24,447 nucleotides of DNA from a virus. Numbering within the stretch: position 1 is the first letter of the stretch; every line of letters starts with the position of its first letter. The notes beneath the pieces were generated by a model, which was given only the letters and a program-made list of their open reading frames with translations, searched no databases and was not told the origin of the DNA. The DNA lies in the IMG/VR virus record IMGVR_UViG_3300010885_030499, positions 1-24,447 of that record. One strand, written 5' to 3'. Below are positions 2,417-24,255 of the stretch, in pieces. Made by a program: the position numbers and the translations under genes.

Positions 2417-2449
2417 AAAAAATGTGATCAATTGATCACATTTTTTTTA
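2417..2449. terminator. Bidirectional hairpin terminator
   Basis: The perfect palindrome TGTGATCAATTGATCACA (2423-2440) is flanked by A6 on the left and T8 on the right. It lies between the convergent clpS gene and the minus-strand gene ending at 2447, so it should stop transcription from both sides. Confidence 0.88.
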
Positions 2450-2896
2450 TAACCTAAACCAATTAAAGTCTTTCAATAATTGTTCTAACCCCTCTATTGA
2501 ATCACATTTAAAAAAGATATCTTCCTCTTCGGAGCCTGGTACAAATTGGGTCAAGCTATAATTATCCTCAATATAGGCACCAACAGTAACAAAGAACCAG
2601 TCATCTATTATCTTTACAATAGATAAGTATATGTTTGGTTTACTAGACTTTATTTCTATAAAATGTTTATCAGTTTGTCCTATCGGGCAAACTATATGTT
2701 TCCTAACGTTTAGTGGTGTGTACTTTTTAATAATATCTAATTCCTTTCGAGTGAAATCCGCCCATATCTTACTTATTGTTTCTAGTCTTGCCGGTTCATC
2801 TTTATATAGGTAAATACCAATCACGCTTAAATCGTCCTCATCTATCTCCTTATATAGTTTCTCAGTAGATTCATTAAACTTCCTTATATGTTTCAT
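2447..2896 (-). CDS. Putative capsid-targeted late protein, member of the three-paralog CD(Q/S)-GL family
   Basis: This 149-aa protein begins MKHIRKFNE|S, the N-terminal signature shared by nine proteins here and resembling the T4 capsid-targeting sequence. The bar marks the predicted prohead-protease cut. Next comes LYKEIDEDDL (14-23), then a mixed alpha/beta domain ending in DDWFFV (98-103) and FFKCDSIEGLEQLL (128-141). The same order of elements appears in the genes at 19193 and 21180, so the three are paralogs. No catalytic residues are evident. It is led by a strong late-promoter-like motif three bases from the ATG, and that motif overlaps the terminase stop. If the signal reading is right, this is a head-internal protein; otherwise it is an unknown late protein. 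Confidence 0.85.
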   Translation of the reverse strand: MKHIRKFNESTEKLYKEIDEDDLSVIGIYLYKDEPARLETISKIWADFTRKELDIIKKYTPLNVRKHIVCPIGQTDKHFIEIKSSKPNIYLSIVKIIDDWFFVTVGAYIEDNYSLTQFVPGSEEEDIFFKCDSIEGLEQLLKDFNWFRL

Positions 2897-2897
2897 A

Positions 2898-2913
2898 AAC
2901 TATATATTAAATT
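2898..2913 (-). promoter_or_regulatory. Late-promoter-like motif for the gene at 2447-2896
   Basis: On the minus strand this reads AATTTAATATATAGTT and is followed at once by the ATG at 2896. It overlaps the stop codon of the terminase gene upstream. Confidence 0.5.
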
Positions 2914-5048
2914 CCAAACCATGTATTTCCGTAGCTATTATTCTTATATTGACTCATAAATTTTCTTTGTCTATTTATATTAATAATGGAAGAGTAATCA
3001 GCAGCCTCTCTATAATCAATTGACTTCAAAATAGAATTAAAGTAATTTAATTTGTCTTTAGGAATATAACTATTCGCATAATCTTCAACCATCTCTCGAT
3101 AATCATTCTTAGCAAATACACTTGAGGCATCAACCAGTGTCATCGTTGTATCATCATTACCAATATCTGCCGCATATCTTACATTACCTGCCGTAGTTAT
3201 ATGTTTAACAAACGTTGTTATCTCTCGAATATTATCCTCATTATTAATGATAAAGTTTTTCTTATCCATTGCTTCCTGATATTCCTTTACTAATAAGTTT
3301 TTGTTATCATTTACCTTTAATCCCAATTTTTCCTCAATCGCATCAGATCTATGCTTATACTTAAAGAATATACTGGATCCATAATTGTTGTTACCATCAA
3401 ATATATTAGGTAGATGAGCAAGAAACTCATTACCATAACTATTAATTTCTAAAACCGCCTTAAAGTTATCAAAATTAAAATACTCAAACATCAATAGATA
3501 GAATATTTCAGCCAATTGCTTAACCGATACCAAGTTTGATCTAAACATACCTATTTGTGTTAGACAGAAGAAATCACTCATATGTGTATAGGTATGCTTC
3601 TGTGATTCAATAACATCATCAGGCTTCTTACCTAACCTAAATATATTAATAACCGAGAAATCTTGCCCCAATCCTTCTGATATATCGATTGATACAATTC
3701 CCTTTATTGAATTTCTTTGTATAGGCATAAATAGCTCATCATCATCAACCCATTTTAAATCTGAATAAGAGAACTTTAATTTTCTATCAAATTCATATAT
3801 CTGTTCAAATTTATAAGGTTTTTTATTTTTCAGCAGATTCTCAATAATACTCTCGTTTAAAAGTGATCTACTTGAGTTTATGAAACGCAATTCATACTCT
3901 TGGTTAAAGGCATCTTCACCACCAATGTTTCTAACCGCATCCTCTTTCCAAGTTGTTGTTTCTGAAACCGCTTGTATTGGTACCTCTAATCCTTCTTTAT
4001 CTATAAACTGAAATGATTTAGATAATACCTCTGTACAGACATCATTATTATAAACTAATATAACATCCTTTTCAAGATCACTATACCATTTCATTTCCAA
4101 CTTTGTCAATCCCCCAAATGTTTCTTTAACTTGCTCAAATATTTCCTCTTTTGTCATATTATAAGCATGTAGCTTATTAGCATATAATCTATAATAAGTA
4201 ACAAATCTACCTTCAACTTGATACCAATATACTCTCATCGCTTTAAAGTTATTCTTTAAAACATCACCATCAACCCTTTCCGCATCAGTAAGTAGCTTAT
4301 GGAATAAGTTCATACCATTTGGTGTTGATGTTATTATTATTTTAGAGTTCTCAACCGCCGAAACAACCGGATAAACAGCCGTGTAGTACGGCTCAATTAT
4401 ATTAGAAGGGATATGTGCAAACTCATCCAGATATAAAAAGTCAATAGTAAAACCAATTGCTGGTGTTTTACTTCTAGCAGCAGATTTAATTCTACATCCA
4501 TTCTCAAATATCATTGTTCTTTGACTCCAGTTCTTAATACCTGCTTTTAAAAAGAAAGGTAGATTAACATATATTGATTTAATCTTATCTATGATCTCAA
4601 TTGTTGTACCAGCTACGTTAGCAACAATCATAATATTTTTATCATTATTAAATGTGATAAAGTGTAGCATGGTAATCGCAGCATTAACTGTTTTACCTGC
4701 TTGCCTACTAGCACATAATATACTAAACCTATTCTTTGTATATAAATCTAATATATCTTTCTGATAGTCACGTAATCTGATATTACCAATGCTACCATCT
4801 TCTCTCTTTACTTTACAGTATTTCTCAGCAAAATAATGTATATCTAATTTACATCTAATATATTCTTGAATTTCATCTTCTGATAATGCGAATGTTATAC
4901 CACTTCTCCTAACACCGACTTCATTTTTAAACCACGGGTTCTGATAACGTTTGATTATATATCCATCCGATATTTGTTGTGTTATATCCACAATATTCTT
5001 ACTTGTGAATATAAATTTCTTCTCTGATTCTTTTTTAGCAACTGCCAT
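2907..5048 (-). CDS. terL: Terminase large subunit (T4 gp17-like)
   Basis: This 713-aa protein is the DNA-packaging motor ATPase and headful nuclease. The ATPase domain shows RDYQKDIL (93-100), Walker A SRQAGKT (114-120), Walker B FLYLDE (204-209) and the coupling motif STPNG (241-245). The C-terminal RNase-H-like nuclease shows its acidic residues in IVSIDISEG, AVLEINSYG and DDTTMTLVDASS, matching the D/E/D triad of gp17. T4 gp17 is 610 aa, so this one is about 100 aa longer, with an extended region between the domains. It would dock on the portal and pump DNA into the prohead. It lies on the minus strand, opposite sheath and tube, whereas T4 genes 16 to 19 are codirectional. The 55-nt gap to the divergent gene holds an AT motif usable on both strands. 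Confidence 0.95.
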   Translation of the reverse strand: MAVAKKESEKKFIFTSKNIVDITQQISDGYIIKRYQNPWFKNEVGVRRSGITFALSEDEIQEYIRCKLDIHYFAEKYCKVKREDGSIGNIRLRDYQKDILDLYTKNRFSILCASRQAGKTVNAAITMLHFITFNNDKNIMIVANVAGTTIEIIDKIKSIYVNLPFFLKAGIKNWSQRTMIFENGCRIKSAARSKTPAIGFTIDFLYLDEFAHIPSNIIEPYYTAVYPVVSAVENSKIIITSTPNGMNLFHKLLTDAERVDGDVLKNNFKAMRVYWYQVEGRFVTYYRLYANKLHAYNMTKEEIFEQVKETFGGLTKLEMKWYSDLEKDVILVYNNDVCTEVLSKSFQFIDKEGLEVPIQAVSETTTWKEDAVRNIGGEDAFNQEYELRFINSSRSLLNESIIENLLKNKKPYKFEQIYEFDRKLKFSYSDLKWVDDDELFMPIQRNSIKGIVSIDISEGLGQDFSVINIFRLGKKPDDVIESQKHTYTHMSDFFCLTQIGMFRSNLVSVKQLAEIFYLLMFEYFNFDNFKAVLEINSYGNEFLAHLPNIFDGNNNYGSSIFFKYKHRSDAIEEKLGLKVNDNKNLLVKEYQEAMDKKNFIINNEDNIREITTFVKHITTAGNVRYAADIGNDDTTMTLVDASSVFAKNDYREMVEDYANSYIPKDKLNYFNSILKSIDYREAADYSSIININRQRKFMSQYKNNSYGNTWFGI

Positions 5049-5069
5049 AATTAAAAGGGATAACCATTT

Positions 5070-5085
5070 TTTAAATATATATAGA
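5070..5085. promoter_or_regulatory. Divergent late-promoter-like element between terL and the helical gene
   Basis: TTTAAATATATATAG reads as a late-like motif toward the ATG at 5104, and its complement CTATATATATTTAAA points toward terL at 5048. The element is nearly self-complementary, so one site may serve both genes. Confidence 0.4.
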
Positions 5086-5103
5086 AAAATAACGTATTCC
5101 TTT

Positions 5104-7180: not shown

Positions 7181-7182
7181 AA

Positions 7183-8020: not shown

Positions 8021-8491
8021 TTAGATCTTACCAATTTTAAAGTTAGGGTTAATAGATTTTCCAGAATTTGTGCTTCTTGACCACCACTTTATTAAATGTT
8101 CAACTGCCAATAATGTATATTCAAAATCTAAAGACCCTTTAGAATAGGGCTTCTCTTTTTGTTTATCAAACTGAGTATCAGTTAATATAGGTTTATTATT
8201 AGTATTTTCTTTTTCACTAGCATAGAAATATATTGTTAGTCTAAATTTATTACTACCAACTACTTTTAATTCTGCTATGATTCTATCCTCATGAATAAAC
8301 TTGTATTCAGTATCAGATATCTTCTTAGCAGAGATATTATATTTACCCAATTCTTTAGCCTCTTTAGTTCCAGTAAGTGATGAGAAAGCTCCTTTAACAC
8401 TATTTGAAACACTCTTAATACTATTTGATAATGATGTTATAATCCCTTCATTAAACTCATTAAAACTTTTTAACTTCATATTATTATCCAT
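8021..8491 (-). CDS. Putative capsid-targeted late protein, 156 aa
   Basis: The frame opens MDNN and then MKLKSFNEFNE|G, which is the shared capsid-targeting-like signature if translation begins at the internal ATG at 8479. The start at 8491 adds four residues and lies 6 nt from the late motif, so both starts are possible. After the signal comes an amphipathic S/N-rich helix (IITSLSNSIKSVSNSVKGAF) and then a beta-rich domain (YNISAKKISDTEYKF..., KFRLTIYFYA) that ends near GKI. No catalytic motif is visible. It would be a head-internal protein if the signal is functional. Confidence 0.8.
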   Translation of the reverse strand: MDNNMKLKSFNEFNEGIITSLSNSIKSVSNSVKGAFSSLTGTKEAKELGKYNISAKKISDTEYKFIHEDRIIAELKVVGSNKFRLTIYFYASEKENTNNKPILTDTQFDKQKEKPYSKGSLDFEYTLLAVEHLIKWWSRSTNSGKSINPNFKIGKI

Positions 8492-8559: not shown

Positions 8560-8910
8560 ATGAAAAAAATTACAACATTTAAACTATTTGAAAGTTTATC
8601 AGAACCTTCCTACGAAGAAAGAGCAAAATTTAGGTTGGCAATTAGAGAAGATAGAGAAGATGATGCAATAGATATGATTAAAAAAAATCCCGAGTTTGCA
8701 CATTATAGAAGACAAATATTTGTGAAGACAGCAGCCGAGTTTGGAAAAGTAAAATTACTTAAATATATGCTTGATAATTGTGATGTTAATATTCCAGAAA
8801 TTAAGAATTGGATGAGCCCTACGATATTTCATGTTGATGGTGAATACAGCGGCGCAACTCTAACAGAGGAAGAATATGAAAAAGTTCTTGATTTATTAGC
8901 TAAATACTAA
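8560..8910 (+). CDS. Putative capsid-targeted ankyrin-like protein
   Basis: This 116-aa protein begins MKKITTFKLFE|S, the capsid-targeting-like signature. Residues 24-72 (FRLAIREDREDDAIDMIKKN ... KLLKYMLD) look like a pair of ankyrin-type helical repeats, and LTEEEYEKVLDLLA closes the protein. The same block, with the matching pieces DNPDI..CRR, LKYLLS and LTEKEIDEIISFIS, occurs at residues 95-168 of the zinc peptidase at 17279. The two therefore share a domain, although here it stands alone. Ankyrin repeats bind proteins, so it may be an adaptor or host-interaction module carried in the head; that is inference. Confidence 0.8.
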   Translation: MKKITTFKLFESLSEPSYEERAKFRLAIREDREDDAIDMIKKNPEFAHYRRQIFVKTAAEFGKVKLLKYMLDNCDVNIPEIKNWMSPTIFHVDGEYSGATLTEEEYEKVLDLLAKY

Positions 8911-9871: not shown

Positions 9872-12800
9872 ATGAAGTATTTAAAATACAGAGAAGATTT
9901 TCTTGTAAGAAAGTTTGAGGAGGTTAAGATTAATAACGAAATACACTTACCAATAAATGAGGAATATGCCTTTGAGAACGACATTACGTGGGGCGGATCC
10001 TTACTTGGTAGACTTATTAACTCAACACTAAGAAAGTCTAAACTCTATCTTAAGGTGACTAAGGTAAGTGGAATAGTTAATGAAGTTGAAGCTCGTTTAG
10101 CTGAACTACTAACACGTTCTATACCTGGTGCTAAGAATATAACTGCACTTGTTGCCTTATATGAGGTATATTGTGCTGCAAATGCGATAAATACACAAAG
10201 GGCATTATACTCAAATCTATCGGTTAATGAAAGAATTGACCAATTATTAGATGGCTTGATAGACAATGCTATTGACCTAACTAAGAAGTCCGAAATTGAG
10301 GGTAAAGATACAATAGTAAGTAGCTTAGAGAAGTTTAGAGATGATCTGAAAAAAGAGGAAGGTGATACAAATGAGGAAGATAATGATGAGGAAGAAGACA
10401 ACGAGTCAGATAAAGTATTCTATGACAACACAGTATCTTTAATACAATCAATAACCAGACTACATCTAGATATAAAGAATAATACTGTTAAGTTTGGGGG
10501 TACAGGTACCAATTTTGATGAAGTAAAATATAACAGACTTAAAGGAATGGCTAAGCCAAGCAATGATGCCGCATATTTAGGTATGCTCAATAATAGATTA
10601 GGTATGGCAAAAAGTGCAGTAGAAATCTATACTAAGAAGAATGATACTGAAAAGGTTAATTTTTATAAAAACGAGGAGGCTGAAATAGGTAAGTTAATTA
10701 AAGAGATTAAAGACAAAAAACAAACAACAACCGTACCTGCGGCAGAAGAAGAGCCAGTAGATAAAGAAGCTCATGAGAATGCAGTTAGGTTAAGTAAGAA
10801 AGGTACAATCGGACAGATAAACGGAGTTACCGCATCAGAAGCATTTAGTTACTATGATGAGTTTTATGTAATGCTTAACGAAGAGATAGATGCAAACCTA
10901 CAGGAAGATGAAGCTTCGAAAAGTGCAAAGATTGCTTGGAATAAAGTTATTAAAGCTTATAGTGCATCAGGCATCGCGACACACATCCAAGATTTGGAAT
11001 CTCTTTTAAATTCCAATGCTGAGAATAAAAAGACAAATATGAAAAATATTGTGGACTTGGGTAGAAAGATTGTTCTAAACTATGATTCATATAAGCCAGA
11101 TGGATTGGAGGCTCTTATAAAAGAGGCAATCGTAGTTGAAGACGTTGCTAAGTCAATATCTTCACTTAGCAAAGTACTATTATCATTTACTGATCAAGAA
11201 ACCAAGGGTGAGTCCACAAATAACCAGGACATATCATGGAAGCATCTTATATTATGGTCACTTGGTGATGATGGTAAAGGTGGTGGTGCAGGCGCACATA
11301 TCAAACAGTTTATCAAATCTTTTAACAAAATAAAAGAAGTATATCCTGATACCGTTAAAAATCAAGATACCAATAAGACAGAAGTTAAATCTGAGACACA
11401 AGAGGAAGTTAAAACCGAAAGATTGATATCAAGCTTCAATAAGTTCATGCTTATAAGAGAGCAGGATGAGGACATATCAGTAAATGATGAAGGGGAAAAT
11501 AAACCTGAGTCACCGGAACAAACAAAAGTGGAAAATAAACCAGATGCCCAAACAAAACAAGAAGAAGAAAATAAGCCAGAAGCTCAGGGACAAGAAACAG
11601 AGACTGAACAGCAGTCTGATAGTATTAAAACATCATGGTTCAAGTTCTTCAAGAAAGGTGATGAGTCTAAATGGAAGGTTGATAAGGCAGCAGCAGATGA
11701 GGCTAATAAGCAACTAGAGAATAGTAAAGGTGAGGATATCTCTACCGAGGCTTTAGATAAAGAAGATAAGGATACTAGGAAGAAAGACCCTATTATTCAA
11801 ATAATTAATCTATTTGGTAGAGCTTATGATTTATATGCTTCTGATTATATTCCATCGGGAAGACCTGGTGGTAGAGTTTCTCAAAAGACGTTGAGAGAAT
11901 ATGAATACATTGGTAAGGCAAGCCCTGGTACAATGGATAATCCTGGGTTTGGACCTTGGGCGGCTAAAGCAGTCTATGATAAATGGCAAACTGGTATAAC
12001 CAAGATACTCGAACAAGAGAGATTCAGAATGATATTGGCTAAGTATAAATTTGTCTCTCAAGCTGAGAAGGATACGGGTACCGAACAAGCAAACTTTGAT
12101 AAGAAAAATCAAGGGTCAGGTAGAACACTTATGACTTTCATCAACGATATGTTAGATAACAAAGAAGGAAGTTTTAAAAAGCATAGAAGTAAAATACTAA
12201 CTAGATACTTTGGAACAGAGGACATTGCAGAAGCTAAAGAGACTGGTGATGGTATACCAAATGGTGGTACAATTAATGCTGATGATAAAGGACCTACTGA
12301 CTCTCCGTTCTTCGATCAAACAGGTCGTACGAACAGTCTCATTGGACTGAAATCAATGGGTAAGAAAATGCTTAAGGTTACTGATAAAGATAATATTAAT
12401 ATTATGTATTTCTATCCATTCGGTGAGCAAAATGGAACAAAGGGTGGTAACTGTGTGATGTTTAAGTATCAATTCTGTCCTAAGGTTAATAAGAAACAAT
12501 CTATTGTATCCAACTATCTAAAAAATCAAGTTAGTAGTGATACATCACCAACCCCATATAAAATGGACCTAATCTCTGGCTCTGGTGCTAGTGATAATGC
12601 TAGACTACCATTCGCGGATAACTACCCAATTTATATTGGATATATTGATTTGGATACACACAATAATAGTTTTTCAATTTCAAATAATCTGAAGATTAAA
12701 TATGTTGAAATAAATGATAGTTTAAAGAATGGCAACTATGATATAAAGTCAAAGGAAATTAAAATTAATAATATTGAGATTCTTAAAGTTCCGGTAGATA

Positions 12801-13597: not shown

Positions 13598-16500
13598 ATG
13601 GCAGCAATTCAAATTGGTAAATACAAAAGACCTGGCATCTTCATCGAAGAGTATGATTTATCACAAATAGCTAATCCAACAGTTATCGAGGGAATAACTA
13701 ACATGGTTATTGGTTTCTCTAAGAAGGGACCGGTAAACACACCAATTCGTTTAACCAATGTGAGTGACCTGGAAGCTATCTTTGGTACAATAGATAGAAG
13801 TTTAGAAAGAAAAGGTTCTTACTTCCACAGAACAGTAACTAAAATGCTGGAGTCTAGTCCTGTATATGCACTTAACCTATTGAAGACCGATGATACATTA
13901 GATAAAATACAATTTAAATCTTTATCTGGTTCCTCATACATATTCAATGCGGCAGAATCTTTAGATTCTTATAGAAAATTCTTTAATACAACTGGATTTT
14001 GGAAGAGAGATACTCAAGCATTTCTTGATCAGGTTAGTCTAGATCCGATTGCTGAGCCATTAGAGCCAATAAGTGGATTAAATACCTTAATCAACCTTAC
14101 TAACGTTTCTGATAGAGCAATAACTGTATTTACATTTAAGTCTTCTATGACTGGATTTGATGTACAATTACAACAATGGTACGGCTCAGCCGATAAGGTT
14201 CCTACTTACTTATATCCAACAGACTTCGCATCTGACTACTTAGTTGATGTTGTTGTTGTTGCTGGTGACTGGACTAACTATAGCACTTTATCAACCGATT
14301 CAAAATGGTCAAAATACTTTGATGCAACTGGTTTACTAAAGGGACAGGTTAGTAGCTTTATACACGATAGAAATATTAATTTATTAGGATATTATCAAGG
14401 TTTATCTTTAATCCCTTACTTCAAAGATTTATCTGGTAGAAACATATTCATTGAAACATTAATCAATAATGATACAGATAAAACAGGATTATTCTGTGCA
14501 TTTAACGTTGATCGTTATGAAACTGATTATCCAAACGGTATGCTAGATTTAATTGGTAATACTCTAGTTGGAACAACACAATCAACAATTGATTTCTTAT
14601 CATATAATGATACTATAATCGATAGTAATACATACGACTTCACTGATTTAGATAGACCAGGTAATACATGGGCAATTATCCCAAGTGGATATGATAGCAT
14701 ATTTAGAGGTGCTGGTGCAACTGGTGTTGCAGAAGGTTACAGATCTGCTTTATACTCAGAAGGATATGTTTATGGTGTATATACTGACTATTCATATGCT
14801 ACCGCATCCTATACGGTTACTGGTACTGTATATGTTACTGATACTCCATATGTAATCATAGGTGGTAAAAAGCTTACTTTAGTTAATAACACCGGCGCAA
14901 CATTATCTACTACATCATTCACAAGTTCTTACACACCAGTCTCTGGAACAAATAGTTTCTATTCAACACTTAAAGTTGATAATACTGGTAAGGTTAGTAT
15001 GATAGGAACAGGCACTGCATCACCTGCGGTTAATGTTACAGATGTTGTATTTGGTTATACCGTAACAACTATCAACCCATCTACATCTTCTTACACATTT
15101 GTTACAAATGATGTAAGTGTTAATGATGGTGGATTTAATGAGTTGGTTTCTGGTGTTGATTTCAATTATCAATATTTATCAAACCCAGTTACAAATGTAA
15201 ATATAGATACAGCTCTTAAACTACAACTTGTATTTGAGTTAGCATCAACTGATAAAGCATCTAGTTTGGCTGCAAGTGGATCTTATGAGAAGTTAAGAAG
15301 AATGGTATATTATAATAGTCTTACAAGCTTCTTCACATCTGAATCAGTTTGGTCAACCGAGAATAAAACTATCGTGACAACTTCTAATGTGAAATTAACA
15401 AAAGTTACAATAACTGGTAAGCTTGGAGTTGAGATTACAAATCTACAAGATACTGATGGTGTATTCTTATATTATAAAACAGATGATGAATTCATTATTG
15501 GATCATCTATATCATTCGGTATTGCTTATAGTGACTATTGGAATACCTCTGGGGCAGCTAATGCTACTGTCGGTGTTTTTGGACAATACTCAAAATTTTA
15601 TATGGATTATGTAAACGGTATAGTACAAACAGATGATTATATAACTGGACCTTCTGGTAATAAATACTATATAAATATAACTGAATTTGGAACAAACACC
15701 GGAGTTTATATATTTGCATTCTTTGATCTACCAACATATGAAGGTGGTGTGGTTTTAGATATTGAGACATATGATCCAGTTGATTACGCAGCTATCTTCA
15801 ATGAGTTTACTGTTATATCAAGAAAATCTAACTTTAGTCAATCTCTTGATGTTGAGTATCCAGATAGCTGGACACCAGTATCAACTAAGATTTTAGTTAA
15901 TGCTGCGAGATATACTGAGGTTAAAGTTGGTGATTATCTAGAAGCATCTTACGACCCATCAACATTAGGCGTAAATACAATAGGTGGACTTACATATTCA
16001 GAAGTTCCTAAACAACTAACAAGAATCATTGCTAAGAAAGCATATGCTTCGGTTTACTCTGAGTTAACCTGTGATGCACCAATTGCATTAACCCCTTATA
16101 ACTATGGTGGTATAACTGCTCAAACAACTAGATATGCTAGTCTTGATAATTATGTATCAACATATAAGGGTACAGCATTAACTGGATTTAAGATGAGAAA
16201 TGAATCAATGCCTAATGGTACTGAAACTAGACAAAACGATATTCTTAACTTAGTTAAATCTGGAACACCATTATTCAAGGCACTAACAAACAAAGAAGCA
16301 ATTGATTTTAGATATTTAATCGATTCATTTGGTTTAGGTTTAATCGAATTCTCTAAGCAACAATTAATGGACATTTGTGGTGCAAGATTAGACTGCTTTG
16401 GTTTCTTAAACATGCCTTCTATGAAGAACTTTAAACATAATACTGATCCACAATTTGTTGATAACGATGGTGTATTTGATACAGCTTATGTAGCAGCAGG

Positions 16501-17200
16501 TGCGAACCAAGATTTAAATCCTTCTACCATATACTCATTCGGTACTGGTGCTGGTACAACTTGTGTTGGTTACTTCGGACCTTACTTAACAGTAAGTGAT
16601 GGTAGACCTTTAGACCTACCACCAGCAATGTTCGTAGCTACAACCTATATGAGAAAGCATAATACAAACTTCACATCTATTGTTCCTTGGACAATCGCCG
16701 CGGGTGTTACTAACGGTAAAGTTACTGGGTTCAATAAAGTTGAAATGGATTTCACACCAACTGATATCGAAAATCTAAATGGTGCTCAAATGAATCCAAT
16801 TGTGTACAAACGTAATAGAGGATTTGTAATTGAAACAGAGAATACCGCTCAAACAGAGTATAAATCAGCATTATCTTACATTCACGTTAGAGAAGTGTTA
16901 ATCGAACTTGAGAGAGAACTTTCTAGAATGCTATTGGACTTCCAGTGGAAATTTAATACTCCAGAAGTAAGATCTGAGATTAAACTAAGAGCAGATGTTA
17001 TCTGTGAGCAATATGTAAACAAAAATGGTTTATATAACTACTTCAACAAGTGTGACTCAGAAAACAACACCTCTGACTTAATTGATAGACAAATCGGTGT
17101 CCTTGATACTTATGTTGAACCAATTAAGGGTATGGGTATCATTGTAAATAATGTTACAATCCTTAGAACAGGAGCTATTCAAAGTGGTGGATTTGCATAA
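13598..17200 (+). CDS. Contractile tail sheath protein (T4 gp18-like) with a large insertion
   Basis: This 1200-aa protein has recognisable sheath ends. The N-terminus (KRPGIFIEEYDLSQIANPTV, then a GFSKKGPVNTPIRLTNVSDL stretch with FGTIDRSLERKGSYFHRTV) matches phage sheath subunits. The C-terminal 200 residues (FVIETENTAQTEYKSALSYI, LERELSRMLLDFQWKFN, then VEPIKGMGIIVNNVTILRTG) form the conserved contractile core. T4 gp18 is 659 aa; the extra length lies mainly between about residues 375 and 845. That region is rich in T, S, Y, G and V and looks like several beta-sandwich or Ig-like surface domains (TASYTVTGTVYVTDTPYVII). The protein polymerises around the tail tube and contracts at infection. 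It has its own promoter and terminator. Confidence 0.95.
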   Translation: MAAIQIGKYKRPGIFIEEYDLSQIANPTVIEGITNMVIGFSKKGPVNTPIRLTNVSDLEAIFGTIDRSLERKGSYFHRTVTKMLESSPVYALNLLKTDDTLDKIQFKSLSGSSYIFNAAESLDSYRKFFNTTGFWKRDTQAFLDQVSLDPIAEPLEPISGLNTLINLTNVSDRAITVFTFKSSMTGFDVQLQQWYGSADKVPTYLYPTDFASDYLVDVVVVAGDWTNYSTLSTDSKWSKYFDATGLLKGQVSSFIHDRNINLLGYYQGLSLIPYFKDLSGRNIFIETLINNDTDKTGLFCAFNVDRYETDYPNGMLDLIGNTLVGTTQSTIDFLSYNDTIIDSNTYDFTDLDRPGNTWAIIPSGYDSIFRGAGATGVAEGYRSALYSEGYVYGVYTDYSYATASYTVTGTVYVTDTPYVIIGGKKLTLVNNTGATLSTTSFTSSYTPVSGTNSFYSTLKVDNTGKVSMIGTGTASPAVNVTDVVFGYTVTTINPSTSSYTFVTNDVSVNDGGFNELVSGVDFNYQYLSNPVTNVNIDTALKLQLVFELASTDKASSLAASGSYEKLRRMVYYNSLTSFFTSESVWSTENKTIVTTSNVKLTKVTITGKLGVEITNLQDTDGVFLYYKTDDEFIIGSSISFGIAYSDYWNTSGAANATVGVFGQYSKFYMDYVNGIVQTDDYITGPSGNKYYINITEFGTNTGVYIFAFFDLPTYEGGVVLDIETYDPVDYAAIFNEFTVISRKSNFSQSLDVEYPDSWTPVSTKILVNAARYTEVKVGDYLEASYDPSTLGVNTIGGLTYSEVPKQLTRIIAKKAYASVYSELTCDAPIALTPYNYGGITAQTTRYASLDNYVSTYKGTALTGFKMRNESMPNGTETRQNDILNLVKSGTPLFKALTNKEAIDFRYLIDSFGLGLIEFSKQQLMDICGARLDCFGFLNMPSMKNFKHNTDPQFVDNDGVFDTAYVAAGANQDLNPSTIYSFGTGAGTTCVGYFGPYLTVSDGRPLDLPPAMFVATTYMRKHNTNFTSIVPWTIAAGVTNGKVTGFNKVEMDFTPTDIENLNGAQMNPIVYKRNRGFVIETENTAQTEYKSALSYIHVREVLIELERELSRMLLDFQWKFNTPEVRSEIKLRADVICEQYVNKNGLYNYFNKCDSENNTSDLIDRQIGVLDTYVEPIKGMGIIVNNVTILRTGAIQSGGFA

Positions 17201-17278: not shown

Positions 17279-19135
17279 ATGAAACACGTAAACAATTGGG
17301 AAATTTTTAACGAAGATGTGGATAATAAATCTCCAAAAAGTCACGTTGGCTTTTTAGAGGAAGTAATAAATACACTGTCCAAAATTCACTCAAATATCAT
17401 TCAATTTGGATCAGCATCCAAAGATCAACAACTATTTATAGAGGACCTTAACAAACTAGTATCCAAGTATGGTACAAAAAATTTGGGAAAGGTTAATGAG
17501 TCACTTAGTGATACAGAGCATCATAAATACTATGACTGGGATAAAAAAAATCAAGATTTAGCAATTGAGTTTAGAAGATCAGTAAAGGATAATAATATTA
17601 CTAAGACCCGTCAAATAGTTAAAGATAACCCAGACATTATCTACTGTAGAAGAAATCATGCGTTTAAACAAGCTGTTGAGAACGAGTCTAGTGACATGTT
17701 AAAGTATCTATTATCAGTTGATAAAGAACTTGGTGGTAATTTAACCGAAAAAGAAATTGATGAAATCATATCTTTCATTTCAGTTCGAAAAGACAATTCA
17801 AGAACTGAGTTATCTAACATAATAGATAATTATAAGAAATTAATGATAAACGAAGGCAAATCATCAAGAGTTAAAGCTAGATCAACTGATCCTTTCAAGC
17901 AGACTTTTCTTAACTTAACCGAATATACTATTCCATACGGAAATGAAACTGATTTGGAAAAGTATCTACCAAGTGGGTATAAAAAAGACTCAATTGGTAA
18001 CTACTATATCGAAGTAGGAAAATCAGAAACATTATTCACTACACACTTAGATACATATTGTGAAAAGAAAGAGAAGGTTAAGCACGTAATATCCGGTGAT
18101 ATTATCAAAACCGATGGTACAACTATATTAGGGGGTGATAATAAATTGGGTATGACTATACTTCTTTACATGATTGAAAAAGGAGTACCTGGTACTTATT
18201 TTTTCTTCTTAGGGGAAGAACCAATATTAAGTGGTGGTTTGTGGGGATCGCAGAATACACTTAAAAGTAATCCTGATTTCTTCAAGAAGTTTAAAAGAGC
18301 AGTTGCCTTTGATAGAAAAGAAAAGGGTTCTGTTGTAAGAAGACAAAAGGGAAGATACTGTTGCTCAGAAGAATTTGCTGAGGCATTAAGTAATGAACTA
18401 ACAAACTTAGGAGTAGATTCCGCACCAGATCCTAATGCTTATTATACCGATACCGCGACATTCTTAGATATAATTCCTGAATGTACTAATATAAGTGCTG
18501 GTGGGTGGAAAGAACACTTTAAAGAAGAGTGGGTTGATTTAGGTTACACAAAACAAGTTGCAGAGGCGGCTTGTAAAGTCGATTGGGAAAATCTTCCAAC
18601 TGAAAGAAAGGTTAACTACTTTCAACCAAAGTATAAAGTTGAACCAAGACACAGATTTGTTAATAGAGAAGTTATTAAGGGTGTTAAAGAAGTATTGAAT
18701 AGATATGATCTACTACACACCAATAACTTAGAATTTGATACTTATAATACAGATACATTAGTATTTAATACCTGGTTCGAAGAAAAGAACATTAAAGTAA
18801 CAATACTAGATGATATTTTACTTCAAATAGAAGGTTATGATGACGTTAAATTTGGATTGAATGAACTTAAAAAGCTAAATCTATATTTAGGCAATATATT
18901 TGGAGTGGATATAAATCCGAATGATTATAAAATGTTATCTTATAAAGATGGTAGAGTAAGTATCTTAGGTAGTGTATTTAATGATATAGATGAATATCTT
19001 GAGCATTTTGATAAAATAAACTCCGATGACACATCATTTGTAATTAAGAAGGGTGGTGATCAGTATAAAGAATACTATGGTAGTGTGGTCCCAAAAGAAC
19101 TTGTTCTAAAATGGTTTCATGATAATATAGCATAA
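17279..19135 (+). CDS. Putative capsid-targeted M20/M28/M42-type zinc peptidase with an ankyrin-like domain
   Basis: This 618-aa protein has three parts. The N-terminus MKHVNNWEIFNE|D is the capsid-targeting-like signature. Residues about 95-168 repeat the ankyrin-like block of the gene at 8560. From about 205 on there is a dinuclear zinc peptidase core: THLDT with H256 and D258, GGDNKLG with D287, GEEP with E313/E314, AFDRK with D345 and KEHF with H413. This is the H-x-D, D, E-E, D, H ligand order of M20/M28/M42 enzymes. The last 150 residues are not recognised. It follows the sheath gene as a single-gene late unit. Family-level enzyme type is likely; substrate and virion location are inference. 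It differs from T4 gp21, which is a serine protease. Confidence 0.88.
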   Translation: MKHVNNWEIFNEDVDNKSPKSHVGFLEEVINTLSKIHSNIIQFGSASKDQQLFIEDLNKLVSKYGTKNLGKVNESLSDTEHHKYYDWDKKNQDLAIEFRRSVKDNNITKTRQIVKDNPDIIYCRRNHAFKQAVENESSDMLKYLLSVDKELGGNLTEKEIDEIISFISVRKDNSRTELSNIIDNYKKLMINEGKSSRVKARSTDPFKQTFLNLTEYTIPYGNETDLEKYLPSGYKKDSIGNYYIEVGKSETLFTTHLDTYCEKKEKVKHVISGDIIKTDGTTILGGDNKLGMTILLYMIEKGVPGTYFFFLGEEPILSGGLWGSQNTLKSNPDFFKKFKRAVAFDRKEKGSVVRRQKGRYCCSEEFAEALSNELTNLGVDSAPDPNAYYTDTATFLDIIPECTNISAGGWKEHFKEEWVDLGYTKQVAEAACKVDWENLPTERKVNYFQPKYKVEPRHRFVNREVIKGVKEVLNRYDLLHTNNLEFDTYNTDTLVFNTWFEEKNIKVTILDDILLQIEGYDDVKFGLNELKKLNLYLGNIFGVDINPNDYKMLSYKDGRVSILGSVFNDIDEYLEHFDKINSDDTSFVIKKGGDQYKEYYGSVVPKELVLKWFHDNIA

Positions 19136-19192: not shown

Positions 19193-20359
19193 ATGAAGTA
19201 TATGAAAATATTTGAGGCGTATAATGATTTCTATCAAGAGATAAGTAATGGTGAATATAATAGGCTACGTGCAACTGACTTTGATGATAGGTATATAGAT
19301 GATATAAGTAAAGCACTTGGTGCTAATTTTATAGTTGAGTCATCAGGTCAGTCAAACACATTTTATTCACATTGTATAATAAGAAGCAACAAAAGTAAGA
19401 TAAAAAAAGTAAGCATACAAGTGTATCAACTATATGATGAATACTTTAAAGTAAAATCAAATTCAGTTATTATCGGTGGTGTCATGATAGATAGATGGTT
19501 CAAATGTGATCAAATTGATGGTCTAATAGAATGTCTTACTAACCTAACAACCTATAACCGAAAGAAATCTAAAAGCATAACTGAGAAAAGAGGTATACTA
19601 ACAGAGTTAGAATATATAGCCGATGATATAATTGAGAAAATGATTGGTAAGTCGAGCATACGATATAAATTTAACTTTAAAGATAGTAATATAGATGTAA
19701 AAATAAAGATAGACCCTACAAATAAAGATATAGGTACTATGAGAAATGGCATTATATCAAATTCGATAATATTATCCAGTTTAGACAAAAGTGTTTTAAT
19801 ACATGAGTTGAAGCACCTATTATATATTAATCAAAATCCAAACAGTAGTGGGTTCAAAAACTCAATAAGCAGATCGTTTAATTGGATAGAAAGCAAATAC
19901 GGAAAAGAATTTAATGAAGGTCATAAGGAAATAATAACAGCACTCTTCTACCTAATCGAACCTGATGAGTTTGAAGCTCAATACAATGGGTTATATCATA
20001 TGATAAAGAGTCAAGTAGAAAAGGACCCAAGTAACAAAAAGGAGATAGTAGATCGACTAATTAAACAGGATGATCTATATAAATTATATACATCGTTTAT
20101 CAAGTGGGACTTTGATATTAGAAATTGGTTTAAAGATGAAAAGTATGTAAAGCCTTTTTTTAATGACTTATACCACACTATTAATATTTTGAAGAAATCT
20201 ACCATCAAAGCAACAATTTTACTAAGCATAGATTATTATTTTAGTTTCAAGAGAAAGAACATAAATACAGAAAAGGCAGTGAAGAATTTTAACCGATTAG
20301 TAAATACACAAGTTCACAAGAACTATAGAAAGTTAATGAGACTATATTCTCTATTTTAA
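19193..20359 (+). CDS. Putative capsid-targeted protein: CDQ-GL domain fused to an HExxH zincin-like domain
   Basis: This 388-aa protein begins MKYMKIFE|A, the capsid-targeting-like signature, followed by FYQEISNGEY (13-22). The first 120 residues end in YDEYFKV (81-87) and WFKCDQIDGLIECL (102-115). They are paralogous to the proteins at 2447 and 21180. The rest is a separate domain with H204-E-L-K-H208, a zinc metalloprotease HExxH motif, followed by EPDEFEAQ (256-263), which could supply the third, glutamate ligand as in gluzincin-like peptidases. The C-terminus is basic and helical. It is a family member that gained a protease-like domain. Activity is predicted from motifs only. Confidence 0.85.
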   Translation: MKYMKIFEAYNDFYQEISNGEYNRLRATDFDDRYIDDISKALGANFIVESSGQSNTFYSHCIIRSNKSKIKKVSIQVYQLYDEYFKVKSNSVIIGGVMIDRWFKCDQIDGLIECLTNLTTYNRKKSKSITEKRGILTELEYIADDIIEKMIGKSSIRYKFNFKDSNIDVKIKIDPTNKDIGTMRNGIISNSIILSSLDKSVLIHELKHLLYINQNPNSSGFKNSISRSFNWIESKYGKEFNEGHKEIITALFYLIEPDEFEAQYNGLYHMIKSQVEKDPSNKKEIVDRLIKQDDLYKLYTSFIKWDFDIRNWFKDEKYVKPFFNDLYHTINILKKSTIKATILLSIDYYFSFKRKNINTEKAVKNFNRLVNTQVHKNYRKLMRLYSLF

Positions 20360-20410: not shown

Positions 20411-20447
20411 TTAATTAAGAATATTAAATAACTGGAGACAAAAAGAT

Positions 20448-20460: not shown

Positions 20461-20501
20461 ATTATAACTAAACAAGTTAAAATAAAAATAATATAAAGAA
20501 A

Positions 20502-21116
20502 ATGCCATTACCGCACTTCACACAATTATTAATGACAGGTAGTCCCGGAGGCCCAGGTACCAAGCCACAAGAACCAGTATATTTAAACCTATTTGAGGTA
20601 ACTTTTATCTTACCTACAATTTTACAGGCACAAGGTAGAGACCCAATGTTATTATTAGAACAAGCAACTAACGTTACTTTAGATCTAACTAAGGACATTG
20701 AGGTTAAGACACAAAACTTCAAATACTCAAGCAGAGCATTCGTAACTATGCCAAGTTCAACACACGTTGAATTTGATATTAAGTTCAATGTGAATGTTAA
20801 TGAGCATGGATCTATGGAAACATGGAATACTCTTAAAGCATGGTACGACTTAGTATGGAACTCACAAAATGGTTCACTACATTATAAGAGTGATATCATC
20901 GGAACTATCATTGTTAACCAACATGACAAGAAGGGGGTTATTCTAAGAAGAGTAACATTCCAAAACGTTCAAATGAAAGGTGTTGATTCAGCAGCTTTAG
21001 AATGGAGTTCAAGTGAAATATGGGGTGCCGCTGCTAAATTTGTAGCAGATTACTGGATTGATGAATACATCGATGGAAACTTTACGATTCAACCGCCATT
21101 GGTTCAAGGTTATTAA
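20502..21116 (+). CDS. Tail tube protein (T4 gp19-like)
   Basis: This 204-aa protein is recognised as a T4-type tail tube subunit: LFEVTFILPT near the N-terminus, a central beta-rich region (FVTMPSSTHVEFDIKFNVNV), WNTLKAWYDLVWNSQNG, the strand IIGTIIVNQHDKKG and the ending W-SSSEIWGAAAKFVADYW. T4 gp19 is 163 aa, so this copy is about 40 aa longer, mostly at the ends. Hexameric rings of this protein stack to form the inner tube through which DNA passes. It is a single-gene unit with two candidate late promoters and a strong bidirectional terminator, as expected for an abundant structural protein. The N-terminal segment GSPGGPGTKPQEP is glycine/proline-rich. Confidence 0.93.
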   Translation: MPLPHFTQLLMTGSPGGPGTKPQEPVYLNLFEVTFILPTILQAQGRDPMLLLEQATNVTLDLTKDIEVKTQNFKYSSRAFVTMPSSTHVEFDIKFNVNVNEHGSMETWNTLKAWYDLVWNSQNGSLHYKSDIIGTIIVNQHDKKGVILRRVTFQNVQMKGVDSAALEWSSSEIWGAAAKFVADYWIDEYIDGNFTIQPPLVQGY

Positions 21117-21130
21117 TAACAAACATAATA

Positions 21131-21169
21131 AAAAAAAAATTCGGATTTTTCAATCCGAATTTTTTTTTA
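21131..21169. terminator. Bidirectional hairpin terminator
   Basis: AATTCGGATT and AATCCGAATT form the stem around a TTTC loop, with long A and T runs on the two sides. It separates the convergent tail tube gene and the minus-strand gene ending at 21180. Confidence 0.92.
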
Positions 21170-21179
21170 TTATAAATTT

Positions 21180-21587
21180 TTAATATTCATCACTCTCATT
21201 AACACCAACTATGTAATCAATTGTATATTTAATAAACTTTAATAATCCCACAAACTGATCACACATATAGAATTTTACAGCAATATATTTTTCTGGTCGA
21301 CATGTCCATCTTACGAGATACCATTCATCCTTTAACTTAACTACTTGCATAGATGATGCACCCTTACCAACACCAGCTTTACCAAACTGTATTTCAACTA
21401 CTTCAGATATAGTCTGTGGTAATATGACAACTCCCTTAATTGCACGTATTTCTTTCAACTCATCTAAGGTAAAGTCAATACTATCGTCGCACCTATCAAT
21501 GTAATCATCACCAGATACTTCATTAAAGTACTGATTATAGTCTTCAAATATCTTGATATAATTCAAAACAGATTGTTTATTTTTCAT
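21180..21587 (-). CDS. Putative capsid-targeted late protein, CD(Q/S)-GL family
   Basis: This 135-aa protein starts MKNKQSVLNYIKIFE|D, an extended version of the shared signature, followed by YFNEVSGDDY (20-29). The domain that follows ends with DEWYLVRW (87-94) and FYMCDQFVGLLKF (106-118), the hallmark positions of the family also found at 2447 and 19193. No catalytic residues are obvious. It is transcribed divergently from the GIY-YIG endonuclease and has a near-perfect late motif. It is probably a head-internal or injected protein; the function of the domain is unknown. Confidence 0.85.
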   Translation of the reverse strand: MKNKQSVLNYIKIFEDYNQYFNEVSGDDYIDRCDDSIDFTLDELKEIRAIKGVVILPQTISEVVEIQFGKAGVGKGASSMQVVKLKDEWYLVRWTCRPEKYIAVKFYMCDQFVGLLKFIKYTIDYIVGVNESDEY

Positions 21588-21591
21588 ATAA

Positions 21592-21606
21592 TGTATATAT
21601 TAAAAA
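21592..21606 (-). promoter_or_regulatory. Late-promoter-like motif for the gene at 21180-21587
   Basis: The minus strand reads TTTTTAATATATACA, 4 nt before the ATG at 21587, one base off the consensus. Confidence 0.55.
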
Positions 21607-21625
21607 TAATTATAAAATAAATTAG

Positions 21626-21669
21626 GGTAAGCAAGATATATTAATATATAATTAAATATCTTGCTTACC
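21626..21669. repeat. Perfect 14-bp inverted repeat at the start of the GIY-YIG gene
   Basis: GGTAAGCAAGATAT (21626-21639) and ATATCTTGCTTACC (21656-21669) are exact reverse complements around a 16-nt AT spacer. The right arm ends immediately before the ATG at 21670. In RNA this hairpin would bury the ribosome landing region. In DNA it could be an operator for a dimeric protein. Confidence 0.9.
21640..21652 (+). promoter_or_regulatory. Late-promoter-like motif inside the inverted repeat
   Basis: ATTAATATATAAT lies in the spacer of the inverted repeat. A transcript starting here would lack the left arm and could not form the hairpin. Confidence 0.5.
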
Positions 21670-22410
21670 ATGAATGATTACTATGTTTATATATTCCTGA
21701 ATTCACTAAAACCCGGACACTTCAAATATGCGGATGATTTAACTTTCACACATCAACCATTTTATGTCGGAAGAGGAATCAATAATAGAATTGAATGTAG
21801 CGAGAAATATGACAAGAATAATAAGATAAAAACATCAATAATAGATTATATACATAAGAATGATATGAATGTGATATCTCTAAAAATAAAAGAGTGTATG
21901 ACTTTAGAAGAATCTTACGATTATGAGATATATACGATAAATAAAATAGGTAGAATTATACATAAGAGTGGACCTCTATCTAATATAGAGGATGGTGGAA
22001 ACACATTTCAAAATAGAATAAGACCTGTTTTACAATATGATATAAAAGGTAATTTTATTAAGGAATATAAATCTATTGGTGAGGCGGTCGCCAGCACAAA
22101 TATTAAAAATATTAGTTATTGTTGCTCTGGTGTTAGAAATTTAGCAGGTAAATATATATGGCGCTATAAACAAAGCAGTGATTTCCCAACTATTATACCA
22201 GTGGACTTTCTAGATAGAATGGTGCACTATGGTAATTATGAAACTCCGGTGTTACAATTTGATATAAACAAAAACTTTATATGTAGATTTGAGTCAATTA
22301 AGGAGGCATCTGATAGCACCGGGTGCTCGAGTCCAAGAATAGTCGATGTATGTAAAGGTAACAGAAAGCATACCAAAAATTTTATTTGGATTTATGCAGA
22401 TAAAAAATAA
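21670..22410 (+). CDS. GIY-YIG homing endonuclease with NUMOD1-like repeats
   Basis: This 246-aa protein starts at ATG 21670. A TTG at 21661 is in frame but lies inside the right arm of the inverted repeat. The GIY-YIG nuclease domain occupies the first 95 residues or so: YYVYIFLNS (4-12), FYVGRG with NR (31-40) and a later Glu-rich helix (EESYDYEIYTINKIG). Two NUMOD1-like DNA-binding repeats follow, each with VLQ(Y/F)DI..NFI.....SI.EA and ending with (Y/F)IW.Y (about 115-160 and 195-246). It sits 6 nt upstream of the gp47 gene, a typical location for a free-standing mobile endonuclease next to a conserved phage gene. The promoter and hairpin arrangement suggests delayed expression. Confidence 0.92.
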   Translation: MNDYYVYIFLNSLKPGHFKYADDLTFTHQPFYVGRGINNRIECSEKYDKNNKIKTSIIDYIHKNDMNVISLKIKECMTLEESYDYEIYTINKIGRIIHKSGPLSNIEDGGNTFQNRIRPVLQYDIKGNFIKEYKSIGEAVASTNIKNISYCCSGVRNLAGKYIWRYKQSSDFPTIIPVDFLDRMVHYGNYETPVLQFDINKNFICRFESIKEASDSTGCSSPRIVDVCKGNRKHTKNFIWIYADKK

Positions 22411-22416
22411 TTTTCT

Positions 22417-23553
22417 ATGAGTAAAATATTACTAGTTGGTGACGTACACTTGGGAATGTCATACCCAAATAACTATCAAAAATGGCTAAATGTTGCACAG
22501 GAATATTTTAGTAAGTTTCTAATACCACTAATCAAATCTGAATTATGTGAGGATGATATCGTTGTATTTCTAGGTGACTTATTTGACAATCGTAACTTTA
22601 TACCAATTGACATACTTGATTATGCAAGAGTTTTGATGGAAGATATATCAGGTGTCTGTCCAATACATATATTGGTTGGTAATCACGATCAGTTTCACAA
22701 GAGTACTGGGGATGTTAATAGTATTAATATGTTTAAATATATGAGAAATGTTTTTATCTATGAAAAGACAAGACTCATAGAGTACAATAACAATAAAATA
22801 CTTATGATGCCATTCATTGATAAAAAAGTTGAGCAAATTAAGGAATTAAAAAGATACTCAGGGTGTGACTATTTATTCTGTCACTCAGATTTAAATGGCG
22901 CAAAGATGCACTTAACATCAGTAGCAAATAAGAATCTTGACAAAATTGATGTTGATGAATTTTCTGGATATAATGATGTCAGAACTGGACATATTCATAT
23001 ACGACAAAAAATAGGCAATATAACTTTTGTCGGTTCTGTATTCGAAATGGATAGAAATGATATGGATAATACCAAAGGTATATTCATATTAGATACTAAT
23101 ACAGGAGAAGAAACATTTGTTGAGAATAAAATATCACCTAAGTTTAAGAAGGTATATGTTAGAGTTGAAGAAGATATTTCATCACTAGATAAAATATCTA
23201 CCAGAGATTATATTGACTTATATATATCGAACTCACTTCTAATAAATAATAGAAAACTTAGAAGAAAGTTAGAAATAATACTAGAGACAGGTAACTTTGC
23301 ATCGGTTGAATATCTTGATGATATCAATAAGACAGAATCAACTGATGATGATGATATAAAGGAATCTATTGTTAATGAGGCATTGGATAATAATCAAATA
23401 CATGATGTTAAATTGGAGTATAAAGAAGTTATACGTGATTATATATCATCACTAAAATATAGCAGTGATAAAACCAAGTCAGGTATATTAAACGAATACG
23501 ATGAGATTGTAAAGATATATGATGACGGTTATGATAAAAAGAAAAGAAAATAA
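22417..23553 (+). CDS. Mre11/SbcD-type recombination nuclease subunit (T4 gp47-like)
   Basis: This 378-aa protein has all metallophosphoesterase motifs of the Mre11/SbcD family: GDVHLG (D9, H11), GDLFDNR (D54), GNHD (N89, H90, D91), CHSDLNG (H156) and TGHIH (H192, H194). T4 gp47 is 339 aa. It should pair with an SbcC/Rad50-like ATPase (gp46), which is not in this window. In T4 the pair resects DNA ends for recombination-dependent replication and helps degrade host DNA. The C-terminal part is charged (TESTDDDDIKES) and ends in basic residues (DKKKRK). The gene follows the GIY-YIG gene by 6 nt and overlaps the next small gene by one base, so these three are probably one operon. Confidence 0.95.
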   Translation: MSKILLVGDVHLGMSYPNNYQKWLNVAQEYFSKFLIPLIKSELCEDDIVVFLGDLFDNRNFIPIDILDYARVLMEDISGVCPIHILVGNHDQFHKSTGDVNSINMFKYMRNVFIYEKTRLIEYNNNKILMMPFIDKKVEQIKELKRYSGCDYLFCHSDLNGAKMHLTSVANKNLDKIDVDEFSGYNDVRTGHIHIRQKIGNITFVGSVFEMDRNDMDNTKGIFILDTNTGEETFVENKISPKFKKVYVRVEEDISSLDKISTRDYIDLYISNSLLINNRKLRRKLEIILETGNFASVEYLDDINKTESTDDDDIKESIVNEALDNNQIHDVKLEYKEVIRDYISSLKYSSDKTKSGILNEYDEIVKIYDDGYDKKKRK

Positions 23554-23732
23554 TGTTAGATTTGAGCAAACACCCTGAGTTAAGTGAGATACTTGATGAA
23601 CTAAGAGAACAGTGGCGTTATGAGTTTGATACTGAGTATAATAGAGATATGATGAATCATCAGATGCGTGAGATAGTTAATGACTATATAAAAAGATACA
23701 GAGATGGTAAAATTGATGAGATAATTAATTAG
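23553..23732 (+). CDS. Small hypothetical protein after gp47, 59 aa
   Basis: The ATG at 23553 shares its A with the stop codon of gp47 (TAATG), a typical coupled start. The product, MLDLSKHPELSEILDELREQ and onward, is highly charged and helical, with a MNHQMREIVNDYIKRYRDGK core and the end IDEIIN. I do not recognise it. Its reading frame and tight coupling make it a likely real gene. It may be an accessory subunit or regulator of gp47. Its end overlaps the convergent gene at 23725 by 8 nt, and I see no terminator between them. Confidence 0.7.
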   Translation: MLDLSKHPELSEILDELREQWRYEFDTEYNRDMMNHQMREIVNDYIKRYRDGKIDEIIN

Positions 23733-24255
23733 TCTCACCACCCTCCCAGTTAAACTCCAACTCTGGTATATAATCACCCATTGATAAATCAGAAATCATT
23801 TTATGATACTCATCATAGTTATATTTACCCCAGTCATTCTTTACAGTAATAAAAAAATCATAACTCGTCGTTGGTACAACACGACTACCTCTTCCACTAT
23901 AATCAAAAGAACCACACTCTTTACTAATTATAGAGAAACCTAGTGTCACATATGACCCATCCACGAAAGTTAACTTTAATTTAATTTCTGGCTTCCAATC
24001 TCTATATGCGGTTTTCAACCCAAAGAACTTATACCATTTATTTGCCCATTTTGAATTTAGAGTACCACCAATCCATTGGTTTGTTTCCCTAGCAGTATCA
24101 ATATATTCTCTTATGAATCCTTGTATATCATCAAACTCATCAACTGGTTTTAGTACTTTACCGTATTCAAAATACACATCTACGCTTTCTAACTCAGCAT
24201 ATAATATATCAAGTGCTGTATCACCAAATGACTCGAATAGTTTGATATATCGCAT
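23725..24255 (-). CDS. Putative capsid-targeted late protein, 176 aa
   Basis: It starts MRYIKLFE|S, a clear version of the shared capsid-targeting-like signature. The rest has an amphipathic helix (GDTALDILYAELESVDVYF), an aromatic stretch with WIGGTLNSKWANKWYKFFG (about 61-79) and a beta-rich end. It lacks the CD(Q/S)-GL element, so it is not a member of that paralog family. The start lies 2 nt after the stop of the next minus-strand gene, whose end contains AAATAAATACT. That sequence resembles the T4 late box and the local motif and may serve as promoter. Function unknown. Confidence 0.85.
   Translation of the reverse strand: MRYIKLFESFGDTALDILYAELESVDVYFEYGKVLKPVDEFDDIQGFIREYIDTARETNQWIGGTLNSKWANKWYKFFGLKTAYRDWKPEIKLKLTFVDGSYVTLGFSIISKECGSFDYSGRGSRVVPTTSYDFFITVKNDWGKYNYDEYHKMISDLSMGDYIPELEFNWEGGETN

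Follow-up and report, generated by a model that had tools for sequence, protein, structure and literature searches.

A candidate T4-type capsid-targeting leader, greatly expanded in a lineage of T4-like megaphages

Nine leader-bearing proteins at the locus

The window analysed here is the whole of IMG/VR record IMGVR_UViG_3300010885_030499, a complete viral contig of 24,447 bases in which 24 open reading frames (ORFs) were scored. Nine of the predicted proteins begin with a tag, a short conserved N-terminal leader (8–15 residues; ~30 in the protein at 9872) on otherwise diverse proteins, which ends in φ-x-E like the cut site of the capsid protein (the exact site in 9872 is uncertain). This shared N-terminus is very probably a T4-type capsid-targeting sequence, greatly expanded in a T4-like megaphage lineage. 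For T4 itself, the leader and how it is used have been established (PMC3012670, PMC5694885).

Proteins are named here by their lowest coordinate, an arrow marks the predicted cut, and scores are those of the tag model defined below. On the minus strand, protein 2447 (2447–2896, 149 residues) begins with MKHIRKFNE↓S (2870–2896; score 22.0), protein 8021 (8021–8491) with MKLKSFNEFNE↓G (8447–8479; T4-like tag form), protein 21180 (21180–21587) with MKNKQSVLNYIKIFE↓D (21543–21587) and protein 23725 (23725–24255, 176 residues) with MRYIKLFE↓S (24232–24255; score 17.4). On the plus strand, the leaders are MKKITTFKLFE↓S (8560–8592; score 12.3) on protein 8560 (8560–8910, 116 residues), a longer leader (9872–9961; score 11.6) on protein 9872 (9872–12925, 1,017 residues), MIKKYKEFRE↓A (12975–13004; T4-like tag form) on protein 12975 (12975–13538, 187 residues), MKHVNNWEIFNE↓D (17279–17314; score 9.0) on protein 17279 (17279–19135, 618 residues) and MKYMKIFE↓A (19193–19216; score 14.8) on protein 19193 (19193–20359, 388 residues). 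All nine N-termini proposed in a first-pass annotation of this DNA are present in the sequence. Six of the nine lie at the first ATG of their ORF with no competing start; protein 8021 starts at its second Met (residue 5), protein 12975 at an ATG within a longer TTG-initiated ORF, and protein 21180 reads MKNKQSVLNYIKIFE↓D from its ATG or, alternatively, MNYIKIFE↓D from an in-frame TTG (score 12.8).

The same annotation described the mature parts as largely unrelated, a description that fails for five of the nine, which form two domain-sharing groups, and stands for the rest. A domain of ~100 residues is common to the mature part of 2447 and to 19193 and 21180 (pairwise E 8e-7 to 3e-4), and the mature part of 8560 is similar to the N-terminal region of 17279 (E 1e-5). 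The alignment of 21180 with 19193 covers the N-terminal region, tag included, and one homologue of 21180 begins with MKGFYQFISE↓S. Pfam and PHROG scans of the nine tagged proteins gave a clear domain only in 17279, where residues 208–446 form a peptidase domain (family phrog_4191, E 4e-55). Protein 19193 contains an HExxH motif, identified by eye; single-sequence structure prediction for this protein gave no usable fold (mean predicted local distance difference test score, pLDDT, 35.5).

The cut sites marked at first pass needed one revision: YRE↓D at residue 8 of 9872 is probably wrong, as homologues keep a longer leader. Among 51 homologous ORFs, several top matches begin with M[KR]YLxxRxxFL, and because two close homologues place LNE↓A directly ahead of the conserved mature region, a cut after LPINE at residue 30 (LPINE↓E) is likelier on this alignment. 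Single weak members of the set, such as 9872 at the originally marked site, could be due to chance. Homologues of 12975 (24 ORFs) are tagged in 19 cases by automatic call and in the remaining five by eye; those of 8021 (eight ORFs in relatives) are tagged in five cases by automatic call, and the other three have a similar F-x-x-FNE start by eye. Searches of related loci returned no informative tagged orthologues for 2447, 8560, 17279, 19193 and 23725 (2447, 17279, 19193 and 23725 are almost without homologues), so that the tags of these five are called from the tag model by itself.

Tag statistics in the window and its relatives

The T4-type genes in the window, all untagged, encode the large terminase subunit (2907–5048, minus strand; phrog_5989, E 8e-42), the tail sheath (13598–17200, plus strand; phrog_34521, E 5e-88), the tail tube (20502–21116, plus strand; phrog_45, E 4e-8) and an SbcD/gp47-like nuclease subunit (22417–23553, plus strand; phrog_100, E 3e-55). 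The terminase serves as the lineage marker. It is 61–63% identical to its counterparts in two metagenomic phages, LR756502 (642 kb; 62.5%) and LR745206 (635 kb; 61.4%), and 41% identical to those of LR756504 (636 kb) and LR756501/3 (735 kb). By this measure LR756502 and LR745206 are the nearest complete relatives of the window, which is a fragment of a T4-like megaphage. We take the LR genomes to be those of Mahaphage type that Al-Shayeb et al. 2020 described.

The tag was described by a gapped position model comprising five positions after the Met and positions P3, P2 and P1′ around the Glu, trained on LR756502 ORFs only, with the internal Met residues of the same proteins as the control and a threshold of 8 throughout. 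ORFs were called by a simple script, so the totals that follow are approximate. The model finds 129 tagged ORFs among 937 in LR756502 (1.6 expected), 109 among 905 in the held-out LR745206 (1.6 expected) and six among the 24 of the window (0.04 expected at the internal-Met rate of LR756502 and LR745206; P ~4e-12). Elsewhere it finds one in PTm1 and none in T4 or phiKZ. A second, T4-like form of the tag, K-Y/F-x-x-F-(I)-x-E, is close to MKTYQEFIAE↓A of T4. It adds 30 ORFs in LR756502 (2.7 expected), 31 in LR745206 (3.2 expected) and two, 8021 and 12975, in the window (0.07 expected); it recovers two known internal proteins in T4, and 41 ORFs in the whole 735-kb phage (3.2 expected). The nine-protein set had been thought unusual for its scale, and that scale was an underestimate: the tag model and the T4-like form together give ~140–160 tagged ORFs per genome in LR756502 and LR745206.

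An AT-rich phage has N-termini rich in K, I and F, some of which may happen to hold φ-x-E. A very loose test for any φ-x-E near the start is far weaker than the tag model, with 10 of the 24 window ORFs positive against 4.4 expected, and in this respect leaves room for coincidence; the claim therefore rests on the whole tag rather than on the cut motif by itself. With the full model, internal-Met controls and held-out genomes predict 0–3 tags against 109–129 found, and AT-rich PTm1 has one and phiKZ none. As an account of the whole set, chance is already refuted, and we give it practically no weight.

Turnover and exchange of tags

LR756502 and LR745206 share 428 reciprocal-best gene pairs, and the tag is common to both members in 26 of these (2.7 expected by chance). 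A reciprocal-best partner in LR745206 is found for 33 of the 129 tagged LR756502 genes against 395 of the 808 untagged ones. As judged from this comparison, the tag persists while the set of tagged genes changes, as in T-even internal proteins (PMC12373910). Tags also change between homologues. A primase-like pair that is 84% identical begins with MKYLRTYE in one phage and with MIIKKYIKFINE in the other; a homologue of the 17279 peptidase in a related contig is untagged and begins at the peptidase domain; and T4 RNA ligase 1 and lysozyme lack a leader that their LR756502 homologues have. In these alignments the labels are interchangeable between homologues. The consensus is specific to the lineage (MK[HY]LKxY..FE↓S in the megaphages, MKYIKEYEEFI-E in LR756500 and MKTLSKLYE in Sphingomonas phage PAU), as expected if leaders co-evolve with a receptor in the core of their own phage.

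Tagged genes are clustered in LR756502, with 80 adjacent pairs against 27 in shuffles, and account for 39 of the 71 ORFs in one 35-kb stretch. A loose family of 100 tagged proteins from LR756502 and LR745206, many of which have an ILxDLxDDGF-like stretch following the tag, was also observed; most of its members have no Pfam or PHROG name. The arrays, this 100-member family, which joins many tagged proteins of both genomes, and the two domain groups among the nine proteins of the window are what would be seen if the tag were a relic of a paralogous family duplicated from one ancestor, with no targeting role. Such an origin is nonetheless highly improbable, given that iterative profile search leaves 140 of the 329 tagged proteins as singletons, that unrelated enzymes are tagged, that homologues swap or lack the tag, and that many different DNA sequences encode it. 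Codon use within the tag matches that of the genome apart from a modest shift towards AAA, CAC and TTA, and the same peptide is encoded by many different DNA sequences; the tag is thus not a DNA repeat, and an explanation at the RNA or codon level was rejected.

Prohead protease and capsid cut site

A gp21-like protease, which the first-pass annotation proposed to look for elsewhere in the genome, is missing from the 24-kb window but occurs in the relatives. The S77 (T4 gp21) profile, run against four megaphages (LR756502, LR745206, LR756504 and LR756501) and eight IMG/VR relatives, has matches in all of the former and in four of the latter. In LR756502, LR745206, LR756504, LR756501 and LR756500, an ORF of ~630–810 residues that adjoins the gp23-like capsid gene has the protease as its N-terminal part. 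The GExxHP and SSR motifs of the protease, which we take to hold the catalytic His and Ser of the protease family, align with T4 gp21. In LR756502, LR745206 and LR756501, the remainder of the ORF is a scaffold-like repeat containing YSEYIAENLDKNI.

At 225272–227371 of LR756502, and in relatives, the protease is fused to a long array of such ~13-residue units, which, from its sequence, looks like a scaffold made of repeated cleavage sites.

The capsid leaders of the megaphages end in HQINE↓N, HSINE↓N, HQIHE↓N, HQMNE↓N and HELYE↓N (positions assigned by eye), and these ends line up with SFLTE↓A of T4, NFLSE↓A of P-SSM2 and LTINE↓N of PTm1. Because the capsid leaders end in φ-x-E↓N in the manner of T4, the capsid protein and the tag most likely share a kind of cut site.

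Comparison with known systems

Internal proteins, of which three are present in T4 and at least 10 across related phages, are recognised by their leader (PMC12373910). The megaphage set resembles T4 IPI–IPIII and Alt in having a short φ-x-E leader, a protease of the same family and a conserved leader on diverse, fast-changing proteins (PMC3012670, PMC12373910). It differs in number, with ~140–160 tagged ORFs in each of two megaphages against the three internal proteins of T4, and in its distinct leader consensus, the fusion of the protease to a scaffold-like part and a cargo with identifiable enzymes. The ejection proteins of phiKZ and SPN3US are head proteins that are processed by a prohead protease and travel into the host together with the DNA (PMC5694885, PMC7411985), as is predicted here. 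Their propeptides are mostly longer than 100 residues and have other cut motifs, whereas the megaphage leaders have 8–15 residues; SPN3US has one propeptide of a length comparable to the T4 leader (PMC5694885).

Cyanophage S-SM1 offers a precedent for an enzyme with a T4-type leader. Its genome has one clear example, MKKFSAFLNE↓A on a cytidylyltransferase (T4-GC190). Mass spectrometry of purified S-SM1 virions found this protein among 41 detected out of ~235 (PMC3037559), so the probability of a chance coincidence is not negligible (roughly one in six). The precedent is one of detection in virions. Like the megaphages, S-SM1 has a T4-type leader on an enzyme; unlike them, it has one clearly tagged protein and no genome-wide set.

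The cultured Sphingomonas phage PAU has ~20 genes with MK[TS][LI]xxL[YF]E↓S/A leaders, many of them between or beside the portal, protease and capsid genes. The depositors' annotation names two of the tagged genes 'internal capsid protein' and one 'scaffolding'. PAU and the megaphages both have leader-bearing gene sets, that of PAU being smaller and with its own consensus. A search of the Klebsiella phage RaK2 genome with one narrow DNA pattern gave no obvious tag. No publication on this leader in megaphages, or on its expansion, was found in a search that left most of the subscription literature outside its reach.

Avoidance of cut sites in tagged proteins

Occurrences of φ-x-E were counted in the proteins of LR756502 and LR745206 after removal of the first 40 residues. 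The ratio of observed to expected occurrences is 0.95 in tagged and 1.11 in untagged proteins. Among the 20 third-position residues and Glu spacings of 1–6, only Glu at spacing +2 deviates (z −5 to −6). The avoidance holds among members of the largest paralogue family (z −3.0), among the other proteins when families are bootstrapped (z −4.6), and with either form of the tag taken separately (z −4.4 and −3.4). In the scaffold part, φ-x-E is enriched ~2.1-fold. Because cargo that shares a compartment with the protease should avoid exposed cut sites, the depletion is read as a footprint of proteolysis; the order, with the scaffold high, bystanders between and cargo low, is predicted by prohead proteolysis and not by other targeting models.

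These counts bear on the suggestion that the tag addresses proteins to another site in the cell, such as a phage nucleus, a replication compartment or a membrane, rather than to the capsid. Conserved N-terminal labels on unrelated proteins would fit other targeting systems as well. A different destination leaves unexplained the φ-x-E ending common to the tag and the capsid cut site, its avoidance in the mature parts, the resemblance to the T4 leader and the gene neighbourhood in PAU, and we hold it to be quite improbable. A comparison of the phiKZ proteome with LR756502 gave six matches, from a query set in which the shell gene (chimallin) was not singled out by name.

Tagged enzymes

Approximately 26 proteins of LR756502 are similar to T4 proteins, and three of these are tagged: the lysozyme, RNA ligase 1 and a P-loop protein. 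The others, including homologues of the polymerase, helicase, clamp loader, ribonucleotide reductase, terminase, sheath, portal and capsid proteins (names assigned in part from the T4 map), are untagged. Among the tagged proteins of LR756502 are a SET protein and four others whose counterparts in LR745206 are tagged as well: RNA ligase 1, a tRNA nucleotidyltransferase, a 2H phosphoesterase and a DHH-type protein. The tagged enzymes of the window are the 17279 peptidase and the HExxH protein 19193, the latter by eye. A tRNA-repair kit that entered with the DNA would counter tRNA-cutting defences.

Two of the tagged proteins of LR756502 are unexpected. The SET-domain protein (208299–208742, 147 residues; Pfam E 2e-11) has a methyltransferase fold that is unexpected in a phage, and a phage lysozyme resembling T4 e (489926–490687) would be surprising if packaged. 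An anti-CBASS function (Acb1; CBASS, cyclic oligonucleotide-based antiphage signalling system) was considered for one tagged protein, which scores 28.4 bits against a cut-off of 27, and was rejected since the general 2′-5′ RNA ligase family matches better.

The leaders might bind the scaffold and be cut while the proteins that carry them are structural or assembly parts of the head, in the core or the inner capsid, which are not delivered. The tagged scaffolding and internal capsid proteins of PAU would suit such a role, as would 12975 and 9872, which are conserved next to the sheath gene in relatives. However, the majority of tagged genes are specific to a lineage and many have enzyme domains, unlike head parts, which makes this account unlikely.

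Other genes at the locus and in relatives

Positions 2133–2414 (plus strand) encode a 93-residue ClpS-adaptor-like protein with an HNDDYN motif (by eye), whose counterpart lies near the LR756502 terminase (205052–205333). An HNH-like gene (1295–1942, plus strand) and a GIY-YIG-like endonuclease gene (21661–22410, plus strand), both recognised by eye, are possibly homing endonucleases inside the structural module. In eight relatives the terminase match spans 2.8–3.0 kb compared with the usual ~2.1 kb, which suggests introns or inteins.

Proposed mechanism and implications

In the proposed mechanism, the leader would be a removable element of ~8–15 residues with a basic start, an aromatic or hydrophobic middle and a φ-x-E end, which docks the protein in the scaffold core during prohead assembly. 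The gp21-like S77 protease, fused to its scaffold-like part, would cut after the Glu as in the major capsid protein, and the trimmed protein would remain in the head with the DNA and enter the host at infection. The system would have grown from the few internal proteins of T4 to ~150 tagged genes in each of LR756502 and LR745206, with a transplantable label on fast-changing, lineage-specific proteins, of which the tRNA-repair and nucleotide-acting enzymes would likely act early against host defence. Core binding, cleavage, packaging, injection and the counter-defence role are what we infer from the observations above, with injection following from the T4 precedent by analogy (PMC12373910).

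Several observations weigh against this interpretation. The S77 matches lie partly under the curated cut-off, compared with 372 bits for the T4 positive control, and the window holds neither a protease nor a capsid gene, both being taken from relatives with ~60% terminase identity. ORF starts derive from the simple script, and two tagged proteins, the lysozyme and one that is primase-like, make odd cargo. The avoidance of φ-x-E is absent in LR756501 (735 kb; 44 tagged proteins) and in the nine proteins of the window alone (59 seen, 52.6 expected). The first-pass proposal of a T4-like leader, cut after φ-x-E and marking a packaged suite, is supported in part: several independent comparative tests agree with it, but one of its marked cuts is probably wrong and the contig lacks the protease. 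For the broader proposition, that megaphages package and inject ~100 or more proteins, that any gene can be enrolled by a short leader, and that the payload includes a tRNA-repair kit (RNA ligase 1, tRNA nucleotidyltransferase and 2H phosphoesterase) and other nucleic-acid enzymes acting before phage transcription, we consider the case evenly balanced.

In T4, the internal proteins form a small and hypervariable group of injected proteins that counter restriction. Should the interpretation given here be true, some of the largest known phages have made this device into a genome-wide delivery system, with approximately one gene in six labelled. Sequence alone would then allow a prediction of those genes, among the hundreds of unknown ones in megaphages, that act as infection begins, and the tagged set would provide a catalogue of candidate anti-defence proteins together with new leaders for protein packaging.

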